DNA of 64,000 nt, from positions 1 through 64,000 of the forward strand of contig VFGZ01000026.1 in assembly GCA_009392215.1 (NCBI GenBank), given 5' to 3'. The stretch comes from SAR202 cluster bacterium. Lineage in GTDB: Bacteria > Chloroflexota > Dehalococcoidia > Lucifugimonadales > Lucifugimonadaceae. The translations under genes and the position numbers were made by a program. Below, one piece after another: positions 34,729 through 39,029 of the stretch. Under the pieces are notes generated by a model. It made no database searches, was not told where the DNA came from, and saw nothing but the letters and a program-made list of their open reading frames with translations. How positions within the stretch are numbered: the first letter of the stretch is position 1; every line of letters begins with the position of its first letter.

Positions 34729-35829
34729 TCAGTGAATTTGGGCTAGCGGTTCTATTTTAAGTTCCTGGGTCGTCGTGTTGAACCATTCGATTACCTCGCG
34801 ATGGAGCGGTATGCCGTCACGTTCTCTTATCTGTGTTTCTTCGTGCTCTGGGAGTCCTGCGTAGTAAACTCGATCATTCCCAGGAGATGGAGGGGTTTCT
34901 ACAAGGTAGGTTAGAAACTGGTCCATAGAGGTCTTAAATTCACCAACATCGCGAAATGCATCGATGCTGAATGCTGCGACGAACTGTGATCCGTTACGCC
35001 GTGGTCCCGTTCCTGTCGGGTTAATGGCTCCGAAAATTCCGGCCGAAAGGATTCCTGAGAACACCTGTCCAATTACTGCCATTCCATACCCTTTATGTGA
35101 TCCAAGCTCTCGTGTTGAGCCCCAGGGTAATAATCGAGTTTTTTCGGGCACATCTTGAGTTTCCATTATCGGCGTTCCGTCTTCCTCTGCAAGTAATCCT
35201 GGAAGCAAACGCGCACCTGTTCGTCTGAGAAGTTGTATCTTATTGGCTGCTACCGATGATGACGAAATATCCAGAACAAATGGAGGCATCTTATCGGCAG
35301 GGATTGCCCAAGCGTGCGGAACAGCTCCGACTCTTGGGATTGCACCAAATGTCGGCACCATTATGGCCCCTCCACCGGTTATAGCGTAGCCGATCATGTC
35401 ATGGGGCATTGCTCGCATAGCGTGATAGGCCATCATACCTGCATGACCACTGTTATGGATTGTGACGGCTCCAATGCCTACTTTACTGGCTTTTTCCACG
35501 GCAATATCCATGGCCTGCGGGCATATGACTAATCCGTGTGAACCATCTGCATCAATAGTTGCTACTGCTGAAGATTCTCTTGTGATTGTCCACTTTGGCT
35601 GGGGATTGATACTTTCATCTTCGTATAGTTTTTTGTAGACACGGAGCATATTGGAGACTCCATGGGTTTCACATCCTCTGATGTCTGCTGTGACTAGCCC
35701 GTCAGCTGCGAGGCTTGCGTCTTCTTGAGAAAGCCCCATTTCGCTGAATATGTTGGTTGTCGTGCGATTTAAATCTTCTGGTTTGACTCGCACTTGGTCT
35801 TCTAACGGCACATGGAAATGATCAAGCAT
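34729..35829 (-). CDS. Ldh_2-family NAD(P)-dependent malate/lactate-type dehydrogenase, copy 2
   Basis: 366 residues of the malate/L-lactate dehydrogenase-like (YlbC/AllD-type) family, unrelated to Rossmann LDH. Motifs: ADIRGCETHGVSNM with the catalytic His, HNSGHAGMMAYHAM, FVLDISSSSVAANKIQL and ELGSHKGYGMAVIGQV. These enzymes oxidise 2-hydroxy acids (ureidoglycolate, malate, sulfolactate, 2,3-diketo-L-gulonate) with NAD(P). The ATG has GGAG 9 nt upstream. It is 12 bp downstream of a paralogue in the same operon, and the two share over half of their residues by eye. Confidence 0.88.
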   Translation of the reverse strand: MLDHFHVPLEDQVRVKPEDLNRTTTNIFSEMGLSQEDASLAADGLVTADIRGCETHGVSNMLRVYKKLYEDESINPQPKWTITRESSAVATIDADGSHGLVICPQAMDIAVEKASKVGIGAVTIHNSGHAGMMAYHAMRAMPHDMIGYAITGGGAIMVPTFGAIPRVGAVPHAWAIPADKMPPFVLDISSSSVAANKIQLLRRTGARLLPGLLAEEDGTPIMETQDVPEKTRLLPWGSTRELGSHKGYGMAVIGQVFSGILSAGIFGAINPTGTGPRRNGSQFVAAFSIDAFRDVGEFKTSMDQFLTYLVETPPSPGNDRVYYAGLPEHEETQIRERDGIPLHREVIEWFNTTTQELKIEPLAQIH

Positions 35830-35841
35830 TGGTTAAAACTC

Positions 35842-36918
35842 CTATCGTTCCAAATCTGGGATATTGAATTCAGCAGTTGTCTTGTCGAACCAGTCGATTA
35901 CTTCTTTATGAAGTGGTATCCCACGATTGTGTCGATCAATTGATTCTTCGTGTTCTGGGAGTCCTGCGTAGTAAACACGATCATGCCCTGGCGCAGGAGG
36001 AGTCTCACGTAGATATTTCAAGAATTCATCCATTGACGACTTGAATCTTGCCACGTCTGTGAATGCTTCAATTGAGTAGGCAGCAACAAAGTGTGACATG
36101 TGCCCGCCTTGGTATGGTCCGAAAGTCCCGTGGGAAAGAATACCTGCGAAAACTTGAGCCACAGCACTCATGCCGTACCCTTTATGAGAACCTAGTTCAC
36201 GTGTGGCACCATTCGGCAACAATATCGTTTCCTCGGGTACTGGGCGCTCATCCATTATTGGAGTGCCGTTTTCATCCGCCATGAGTCCGGGTATGGTCAT
36301 GGCTTCCATTCTTCTCAATAGTTGGATTTTATTAGCGGCCACAGATGAGGATGAAATGTCGAGTACAAAGGGGGCTTCCTTGTCAGCAGGAACTGCCCAT
36401 GCGTGTGGGTTGGGCGCTAGCCTCGGTTCGCTGCCAAAGGTTGGTGGCATTGATTGTCCCCCGGCAGTGATAGAGTAGCCGATCATATCGTGAGGCAAAG
36501 CCATCATCGCGTGGTAGGCGATCATACCGGCATGGCGTCCGTTTCCCATTGTAATTGCGCCGATACCGGTTTCTCGGGCTTTTTGTATGGCTATTTCCAT
36601 GACCTGTGGAATTACCGCTATGCCGAGACCGCGATCACAATCGACGTTTGCAGTAGTCGGGGTTTCGCGTGTGATTCGCCATGTTGGTCTTGGATTTATA
36701 CTTCCTTCTCCAACCATTCTTATGTAGTTTCGCATCATGTTGGAGACGCCATGAGTATCGACACCGCGTGTATCTGAGAGGAGGAGCACGTCTGTTGCTT
36801 GCCATGCGTCTTGTTCAGAAAACCCAATTTTCAAAAATAGGGCATTGACCGTCTTACGAAGAGAATCTGGCATAATCCTGACTTCATCTTCTTCGGGAAC
36901 ATGGAAGTGTTCGAGCAT
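35842..36918 (-). CDS. Ldh_2-family NAD(P)-dependent malate/lactate-type dehydrogenase, copy 1
   Basis: 358 residues. SDTRGVDTHGVSNMM holds the His, MGNGRHAGMIAYHAM, FVLDISSSSVAANKIQL and ELGSHKGYGMSAVAQV are shared with its neighbour. It should oxidise a 2-hydroxy acid. Differences near the substrate pocket, for example the RLAPNPHAWAVP stretch, suggest the copies have diverged in specificity. The pair starts at a 268-bp divergent gap with a strong inverted repeat. Confidence 0.88.
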   Translation of the reverse strand: MLEHFHVPEEDEVRIMPDSLRKTVNALFLKIGFSEQDAWQATDVLLLSDTRGVDTHGVSNMMRNYIRMVGEGSINPRPTWRITRETPTTANVDCDRGLGIAVIPQVMEIAIQKARETGIGAITMGNGRHAGMIAYHAMMALPHDMIGYSITAGGQSMPPTFGSEPRLAPNPHAWAVPADKEAPFVLDISSSSVAANKIQLLRRMEAMTIPGLMADENGTPIMDERPVPEETILLPNGATRELGSHKGYGMSAVAQVFAGILSHGTFGPYQGGHMSHFVAAYSIEAFTDVARFKSSMDEFLKYLRETPPAPGHDRVYYAGLPEHEESIDRHNRGIPLHKEVIDWFDKTTAEFNIPDLER

Positions 36919-37090: not shown

Positions 37091-37186
37091 GCCGTGGTTT
37101 TACTGGATTTAACGTGTCGACCATGCGTCTTGCTTACGTTTCATGTTGACATAATCAAATAGATATAGATCTTGGAGGAATAGCCT

Positions 37187-37723
37187 GTGATGATGGAGGA
37201 ACTTGCGCAAAAGTTCCATACTGTTTCGGGTGCAGGTTGTGTGGTTGTAACCGGTGCTGGGATCAGTGCGATCAGTGCATTGTTTGCTCAGCCTGGCGCC
37301 TCTCGTACGCTACTTGAAGTGCAGGTCCCGTACACTCAAAAAGCACTTGATGAATTTGTTGGGACTCGGGCGGAGCAACACGTCTCTAAATCCGAGGCGA
37401 TTCTGATAGCAGAATCGGCTTTGAGCCGTGCCCGTTATCTTGCCGCTGACAACTTGAAGCAATCTCTTTTTGGTGTCGGTTGTACCGCAGCAATAGCTAC
37501 TGACCGGATCAGAAGGGGTGAAGATCGAGCGCACATTGCTTGGTCTGACGGAAAGCAAACGGGTGGTATGTCTGTATGGTTTGATAAAGAAACTCGGACT
37601 CGAATTGATGAAGAGCAGGTCGTTGCAGCAATGGTCATGAATTCTATTGCCGCTGTTTTGAAAATCGAGGATAGGATGGAAATTAACATTTTCGAGACGG
37701 AGCGGATTGATGAATTCGGTTGA
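37187..37723 (+). CDS. CinA C-terminal (PncC)-like protein
   Basis: 178 residues. VVVTGAGISAISALFAQPG, then VPYTQKALDEFVG and FGVGCTAAIATDR align in order with the CinA C-terminal/PncC blocks (ESCTGG, YSNxAK, GVSGIAGP), although the catalytic Ser-containing ESCTGG is degenerate here (TGAGIS). PncC deamidates nicotinamide mononucleotide to nicotinate mononucleotide. The GTG start has GGAGGA 7 nt upstream. The end overlaps the next gene, a nucleotidyltransferase, by 14 bp. Such an organisation suggests a joint role in pyridine-nucleotide salvage, but the active-site change leaves activity in doubt. Confidence 0.68.
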   Translation: MMMEELAQKFHTVSGAGCVVVTGAGISAISALFAQPGASRTLLEVQVPYTQKALDEFVGTRAEQHVSKSEAILIAESALSRARYLAADNLKQSLFGVGCTAAIATDRIRRGEDRAHIAWSDGKQTGGMSVWFDKETRTRIDEEQVVAAMVMNSIAAVLKIEDRMEINIFETERIDEFG

Positions 37724-38321
37724 CAGGCTTTACGCAGAGGAAATTGCGGGGCTGGTTATAGATGCTGATGGCAATCAGAGCGAATCGCTTCCCAAAAAAC
37801 CACTGGTGCTGGCCGGGTCCTTCAATCCGATTCACCGTGGGCACAAAGATCTATTGTCGGCTGCCATGGCGATGACGGGTGATAATGGATACTACGAGAT
37901 TTCGATAAGGAACGTTGATAAACCGTTACTCCTAAAAACAGAACTCGTTAAAAGATCTGAGCAGGTATTAAAAAATGGTAAATCTTTGATTCTCACAAGT
38001 GCCCCTCGCTTCACAGAAAAATCATCAATTCTGCCTGGCGCTACGTTCGTTATTGGATTCGATACTTGTGTTCGTCTTTTTGATGAAACCTATTATCCTG
38101 ATCATGCTGTCGGCTCAGAAGCAGCAGTGGATAATTCCCTGGATCTGATTGAAGAAAATGGGTGCAAATTTATAGTTGCAGGAAGAATTAACTCCAGAGG
38201 GGAATTCCAAGATCTTAGTGACGTTTCAGTACCACAACGATTTAGAAATATGTTCCGTGAACTGACCGAATCTCAATTCCGGTCGGATCTCTCGTCGACG
38301 GAGATGCGAGAACGCTTTTGA
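37710..38321 (+). CDS. HxGH-motif nucleotidyltransferase (NMNAT/CoaD-like)
   Basis: 203 residues from ATG 37710. LAGSFNPIHRGHKDLL carries the HxGH motif that binds ATP, and SSTEMRERF at the C-terminus matches the ISSTxxR motif of NMN/nicotinate-MN adenylyltransferases. Between them, ATFVIGFDTCVRLF resembles the NadD central strand. It therefore probably adenylylates a mononucleotide or phosphopantetheine-like substrate. It differs from canonical NadD in its ~30-residue N-terminus, and its immediate overlap with a PncC-like gene suggests nicotinamide nucleotide metabolism. Confidence 0.75.
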   Translation: MNSVDRLYAEEIAGLVIDADGNQSESLPKKPLVLAGSFNPIHRGHKDLLSAAMAMTGDNGYYEISIRNVDKPLLLKTELVKRSEQVLKNGKSLILTSAPRFTEKSSILPGATFVIGFDTCVRLFDETYYPDHAVGSEAAVDNSLDLIEENGCKFIVAGRINSRGEFQDLSDVSVPQRFRNMFRELTESQFRSDLSSTEMRERF

Positions 38322-38438: not shown

Positions 38439-39029
38439 ATGGATGAAACTAACTTCAGCAACGATAGAGTTGCAAGTGACTTGCTAGACAGGATGTTTGT
38501 AGAACGTTGGTCTTCAAAAGCGTTTACCGATGACCAATTGTCTGAGCAACAGATTGCGGTTTTATTTGAAGCTGCTCACTGGGCCCCCTCATCAAGTAAT
38601 AGGCAGCCATGGCTTTTCGTCTACGCTACAGAGGGGCTGGATCGGGCTCGTTTTAACTCTGTTCTGAATGAAGGAAATGCGTTGTGGGCTACCAAGGCTG
38701 CAATGCTTGTTCTGGTATTTGCTCGTGTGGTTGATGAAGAAGGTAACGATATCCGTACCGCACATTTTGATACCGGAGCGGCTTGGATGTCATTGGCGCT
38801 GCAGGCTAATCGCATGGGTCTTAACACACGAGCGATGGGCGGTATTGATCTGGATGCGGCGTATACCGTTGCGGGGGTTCCCCCTGAGGAATTTCAAACG
38901 ATATGTGCGATCGCGGTCGGGCTGCCAGGTACATTAGACGACATTGATCCTAATATTGCAAAAGGCAACATTGCCAACGATCGGAATCCAATCACTGAAA
39001 TTGCGTTTTATGGCAGTTATCTGAAATAG
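38439..39029 (+). CDS. Nitroreductase-family flavoprotein
   Basis: 196 residues with the nitroreductase fold: RWSSKAFTDDQLSEQQ at the N-terminus, AAHWAPSSSNRQPWLFVYA (FMN-binding Arg/Ser/Asn block), and AVGLPG near the C-terminus with YGSYLK at the end. These dimeric FMN enzymes use NAD(P)H to reduce nitro groups, quinones or enones, or dehalogenate. It lies 117 bp after the nucleotidyltransferase on the same strand. Substrate is not readable. Confidence 0.88.
   Translation: MDETNFSNDRVASDLLDRMFVERWSSKAFTDDQLSEQQIAVLFEAAHWAPSSSNRQPWLFVYATEGLDRARFNSVLNEGNALWATKAAMLVLVFARVVDEEGNDIRTAHFDTGAAWMSLALQANRMGLNTRAMGGIDLDAAYTVAGVPPEEFQTICAIAVGLPGTLDDIDPNIAKGNIANDRNPITEIAFYGSYLK

Follow-up and report, generated by a model that had tools for sequence, protein, structure and literature searches.

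Do the overlapping genes ORF A and ORF B, which resemble a CinA-type NMN deamidase and an HxGH nucleotidyltransferase, respectively, form a unit that handles pyridine nucleotides, and what would the first half do in it if its catalytic residues are gone? The preliminary description of the window (the whole stretch of 64,000 nucleotides analysed here) had suggested a coupled pair in which the CinA-like protein is a partner and not an amidase. We followed up this suggestion with structure prediction, profile searches, and comparisons across related and more distant genomes. The best explanation of the results is that ORF A and ORF B are two halves of one functional unit, and we hold the joint reading developed below at an even balance between belief and doubt. 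The features on which it rests are collected in Table 1.

Table 1. Features of the gene pair and its immediate surroundings, in window coordinates
Feature	Position	Strand	Basis or remark
GGAGGA, Shine-Dalgarno-like	37174..37179	+	7 bases upstream of the ORF A start codon (GTG); read directly
ORF A, 178 aa, CinA/PncC-fold protein without the deamidase dyad	37187..37723	+	GTG start
VTGAGI, residues 21-26 of A, where PncC has ESCTGG	37247..37264	+	T22 aligns with catalytic S31 (HMMER alignment to 2A9S)
PGAS, A residues 36-39	37292..37303	+	G37 = G46 and S39 = S48 of AtCinA, both phosphate-binding there
Y49 to L54 of A	37331..37348	+	Y49 = Y58, kept; L54 = K63, catalytic Lys lost; from alignments and counts
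K134 to R139 of A	37586..37603	+	conserved in 95/102 and 101/102; R139 = R145/R377 inferred from alignment end offsets
Overlap of 14 bp, 3' end of ORF A and start of ORF B	37710..37723	+	same length in 17/17 same-genus loci
ORF B, 203 aa, HxGH nucleotidyltransferase, NadD/NMNAT fold, probably nearest to yeast Pof1	37710..38321	+	ATG start; fold from the fused homologue L092, not the window protein; Pof1 sequence checked by length, H43, and R227
HRGH, HxGH motif of B (residues 42-45)	37833..37844	+	both His in 116/116
SSTEMR, SSxxxR motif of B (residues 195-200)	38292..38309	+	S196 in 116/116, R200 in 113/116
Nitroreductase-family gene, next downstream	38439..39029	+	PF00881 2.3e-19; lineage-specific neighbour

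The gene pair and its fused relatives

We took the ATG at 37710 as the start of ORF B; the ORF listing gave a TTG at 37707, three bases earlier. The 14-bp overlap reported in the preliminary description is exact, both in the window and in each of the 16 further loci of the genus where the pair occurs. An overlap by chance was also considered and is ruled out by this conservation together with the fusions described below. Purifying selection acts on both genes, with dN/dS values against the two nearest relatives of 0.16 and 0.11 for ORF A and 0.21 and 0.16 for ORF B.

The constant pairing of the two genes was likewise borne out: of 60 related genomes, 44 carry B, and exactly these carry A. Among 45 close loci, including the window, 15 encode A and B as one fused frame, 28 have two separate same-strand frames, and in 2 only B was seen on the first pass. 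One of these last two (L079) starts at a contig end and has an A fragment on another contig, and the other (L101) has a weak A match immediately upstream. With script-picked starts, 24 of the 28 loci with separate frames show an overlap of 4 to 46 bp, and the remaining four a spacing of 1 to 67 bp.

For a wider sample we used one genome per species, which confirmed at least 146 relatives and left 80 loci from named genomes, many of these being metagenome bins. In 79 of the 80 kept loci A and B form a single frame that matches both domain profiles, with L149 as the split exception, and the fused chain is about 380 residues long. The search for natural fusions proposed earlier was thus successful in both samples, and because the single frame is so prevalent among the kept loci, we regard the window's pair as a split version of a fusion that is widespread. 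By NCBI phylum, the kept loci belong to Chloroflexota (28), Planctomycetota (23), Pseudomonadota (22), Rokuibacteriota (2), Latescibacterota (2), and Deinococcota (1), with 2 unassigned. A tree of 116 B domains clusters the split rows; seven label changes are needed, and the supported branches are compatible with one origin. The B domain of L093, from the window's own order, is identical to that of L133, a SAR202 cluster bacterium, which makes a SAR202-type Chloroflexota the probable source of the window.

Relatives were also sought beyond these genomes. One IMG/VR scan with the window's B for viral relatives gave no match and a plasmid scan with the L140 fusion found no relative, though distant relatives could escape either scan. 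At2g01220 may be a plant homologue; the literature search found no paper naming this gene. For the 83 members checked, no fusion-specific NCBIfam model appeared, and titles and abstracts yielded no paper that describes or names a fusion of a CinA fold with a NadD fold. CinA is not mentioned in PMC9503650. Each half is a known fold, and their combination is widespread and, within the literature searched, unstudied.

Folds and residues of the two halves

The AlphaFold2 model of the window's A protein (102 sequences, pLDDT 96.2) has CinA proteins as its best structural matches, with a Z score of 18.4 and an rmsd of 2.4 over 150 aligned residues for AtCinA (2A9S) and a Z score of 16.6 for TtCinA (4CTA). 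Structure prediction thus places A in the CinA fold, as had been proposed. By sequence, a profile of A picks up 2A9S with an E value of 0.00067 (HMMER). When A was aligned, profile to profile, with 18 PncC-like domains of related genomes (probability 96.7, E 4e-10), the alignment covered residues 27-134 and agreed there with that from HMMER. The window's A had no PF02464 match at E ≤ 1 and no Pfam match above the cut-off; PF02464 matched 40 of 83 fused homologues at E ≤ 0.01, and its cut-off was passed by the fused frames of G045, G046, G058, and G059. Neither half was classed as PncC or NadD.

The HMMER alignment to 2A9S sets T22, G37, S39, Y49, and L54 of A against S31, G46, S48, Y58, and K63 of AtCinA. 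Passages of PMC5384747 state that S31A and K63A mutants of AtCinA have no detectable activity and that G46 is a phosphate-binding residue, and passages of PMC5384747 and PMC4246079 describe Y58, S48, and R145 as gripping the phosphate of NMN. We counted these positions in 102 of 122 A domains. Most of the 20 that were dropped are near-duplicates; L087, L092, and L175 were dropped as incomplete at the start and L097 and L103 as divergent split forms, in both of which the Tyr is followed, five positions on, by a Leu (read by eye). The A of L149, also a split form, is not in the set. Neither Lys nor Arg occupies the K63 position in any of the 102 domains, the S31/K63 dyad is intact in none, and the S31 position holds Thr in 53, Ala in 31, and Ser in 18. 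The positions that contact the NMN phosphate are kept, with G46 in 102, S48 in 101, and Y58 in 100 of the 102.

The conserved R139 would correspond to R145 of AtCinA and R377 of TtCinA according to alignment end offsets, not coordinates, and on the assumption of a gapless last helix (161 to 167 in 2A9S and 156 to 394 in 4CTA for the window's A; 158 to 165 and 155 to 394 for L092, where the Arg is residue 138). E142 is also conserved (97/102), and T105, R107, G111, K134, and E142 are conserved beyond the PncC set. Read from these alignments, the pocket of A is one in which the residues that would grip NMN are kept and the cutting pair is lost. The earlier remarks that the ESCTGG motif is degenerate and that A is a partner instead of an amidase both agree with this residue-level picture.

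Compared with the PncC/CinA C-terminal NMN deamidases (PF02464; AtCinA 2A9S, TtCinA 4CT8/4UOC), A shares the fold, the PG(A/S)S turn, the Tyr, and probably the phosphate-binding Arg, whereas its family has TG(A/G)G for ESCTGG, never the catalytic Lys, and seldom the nucleophile Ser. Its fusion partner is a nucleotidyltransferase and not COG1058. The A model also matches HcgF with Z scores of 10.9 and 10.6, and a structure of HcgF bound to guanylylpyridinol exists, as given in the structure title. HcgF, which we take to be an FeGP cofactor biosynthesis protein, is archaeal and 9% identical to A, and it may set a precedent for proteins of the CinA fold other than PncC that hold a pyridine-type nucleotide.

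The window's B protein matches CTP_transf_like at 1.3e-7. In the model of the fused homologue L092 (pLDDT 94.6), whose pTM of 0.67 leaves the domain arrangement loosely defined, residues 206-380 match NadD/NMNAT chains (NaMN/NMN adenylyltransferases) with Z scores from 12.7 (5VIR) down to about 10, and PPAT with 8.4. Across 116 B domains (38 of the 45 from close loci and 78 of the 79 from named genomes), both His of HxGH, K71, K104, D118, T119, R122, R159, and S196 are invariant. The usual nicotinamide-stacking Trp is absent, as only 1 of the 116 has a Trp between the positions of window B residues 119-135, and because of this absence B may use another substrate. Against the NadD model TIGR00482, the window's B scored 20.2 bits, with a cut-off of 112.45. 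A yeast Pof1 sequence, checked only by its length, H43, and R227, scored 38.0 bits (E 1.1e-9 at Z=20000) when searched with the B profile, compared with 11.9-19.5 bits for nine NadD from related genomes and 3.9 bits for the best of 200 shuffles.

These results divide the earlier view of B as a typical NMN or NaMN adenylyltransferase. The NadD/NMNAT fold (on L092) and the HxGH and SSxxxR motifs stand, and so does the likeness of the latter to SSTxxR of NadD/NMNAT, but B is far below the NadD cut-off, lacks the Trp, is extra to the genome's own NadD, and is probably closer to Pof1 than to NadD. In that comparison B shares with Pof1 (YCL047C, an atypical NMNAT) the motifs HxxH, NxDK, FxxK, GxDTxxRxxDExYY, and SSxxxR and the missing stacking Trp; unlike the unit, Pof1 is eukaryotic, has 258 residues, and carries no CinA-like domain. 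Passages of PMC13191266 describe Pof1 as an NMNAT of low efficiency that needs H43 for NAD synthesis, propose that it limits access to NMN, and call its NMN-binding site elusive. That Pof1 is without the Trp conserved in other NMNATs is stated in a passage of PMC12470169.

Genome context

Canonical NadD proteins that score above the cut-off are encoded by 57 of the 60 relatives. The window's own genome encodes one too, as well as PF02464 proteins on two other contigs (C24 and C44). Since both kinds of protein are encoded elsewhere, the pair is an addition to the genome, and the separate canonical NadD means that NAD synthesis would not depend on the pair alone. The small PncC-like protein of the genus and its kin (L220, on C24 of the window genome; L214-L219 and L224) has ESSTGG and either Arg (7) or Leu (1) at the K63 position, at which the set of 18 PncC-like control domains is mixed (Lys 10, Arg 7, Leu 1). 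Because of this Arg or Leu, the small protein may be atypical and not a standard NMN deamidase.

The nitroreductase noted in the preliminary description does follow the pair on the same strand, and in the genus it comes directly after the pair at 16 of 17 loci. As a general member of the unit it was rejected, being next in only 19 of 125 loci in all and seen only in the window's family and in L149. A second neighbour, which we take from its sequence to be ubiD, is the next gene downstream in 20 of the 125 loci, only 2-16 bp away in 16 of them, and is usually followed by ubiA and ubiX. These loci (L087, L090, L092, L093, L095, L098, L099, L101, L102, L104, L106, L108, L110, L112, L119, L121, L122, L124, L127, and L133) are all Chloroflexota or relatives from the window's order, and they include the duplicate or near-duplicate pairs L093/L133 and L098/L099. 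In other phyla, ubiD was adjacent in no locus examined, although L175 has it 3.5 kb away; in the window genome it lies on another contig.

Upstream, same-genus loci (L063-L075) carry a carbon-nitrogen hydrolase-like gene, presumably of the nitrilase family, that ends about 2 bp before ORF A. Among the 17 same-genus loci it is full length in 5 (L064, L065, L066, L070, and L074), truncated by internal deletions that vary between loci in 7 (L063, L068, L069, L071, L072, L073, and L075), and was not found in 5, including the window. All seven shortened copies keep their frame open until near the pair, as if translation through the gene were needed. Just upstream of the pair in the window, two similar adjacent paralogues occupy 34729-36918 on the minus strand and recur in most same-genus loci; we take them to be LDH2-type, malate/lactate dehydrogenase-like proteins.

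Proposed role and rival readings

We propose that the unit combines a pseudo-deamidase that binds an NMN-like nucleotide with a Pof1-type adenylyltransferase, working besides canonical NadD. We infer the ligand, the catalysis, and the physical association, and would put this proposal midway between probable and improbable. The salvage or damage-control function suggested in the preliminary description is hypothetical. In it, A would use the retained pocket to grip the 5'-phosphate and ring of NMN, binding an NMN-like nucleotide without deamidating it. B would place ATP via HxGH and SSxxxR and adenylylate the nucleotide bound by A, most likely converting NMN to NAD, while A might hold, sense, or hand over the substrate, or gate B. 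The unit would then be a second, specialised NMN-handling activity beside canonical NadD, and in the window's lineage the gene is split, its halves still coupled via the overlap.

One observation that speaks against NMN is the ubiD-ubiA-ubiX series directly after many Chloroflexota members, which NMN chemistry leaves unexplained. It raises the alternative, which we consider rather unlikely, that the substrate of the unit is some other phosphorylated small molecule, such as a flavin or quinone-pathway intermediate, and that the NMN-like features of the unit are owed to fold ancestry only. The nitroreductase neighbour, the absence of the nicotinamide-stacking Trp from B, and the A residues conserved beyond the PncC set would fit this alternative as well. 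However, the ubiD link is limited to Chloroflexota and the window's order, all four phosphate and ring contacts of the NMN site are kept (with R139 taken as R145 from the end offsets), and Pof1, which has the odd features of B, is an NMNAT in the literature.

Another possibility is that A remains an amidase with relocated residues, T22 as the nucleophile and K134 as the base, so that one protein would convert NMN to NaMN and then to NaAD. In its favour, 71 of the 102 domains have Thr or Ser where the nucleophile would be, 96 have Thr at the probable T105 position, and 95 have the new Lys K134, which could be catalytic. In addition, a passage of PMC4246079 puts forward a mechanism in which water attacks and no Ser serves as nucleophile. 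We nevertheless judge it decidedly unlikely, as the base K63 is lost from every domain, the nucleophile position is Ala in 31 of the 102, and the S31A and K63A mutations abolish the activity of AtCinA, as stated in a passage of PMC5384747. In a last reading, B would be an ordinary NadD that has no functional link to its neighbour A; the shared fold class and motifs speak for this, but we find it highly improbable given the low TIGR00482 score, the canonical NadD encoded separately, and the A-B fusions.

Returning to the pseudo-deamidase with its Pof1-type partner, a broader claim, which we put forward only as doubtful, is that many bacterial phyla have a dedicated NMN-channelling or NMN-sensing enzyme, in which the pseudo-deamidase captures NMN and passes it to, or gates, the attached adenylyltransferase. 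If this is true, NMN would be shielded from deamidation and breakdown, and cells would have a second, regulated entry to NAD that is undescribed in bacteria. An NMN-binding pseudoenzyme attached to an NMN-adenylating domain would be a candidate for sparing NMN wasteful deamidation, and the unit would be a bacterial counterpart of yeast Pof1.
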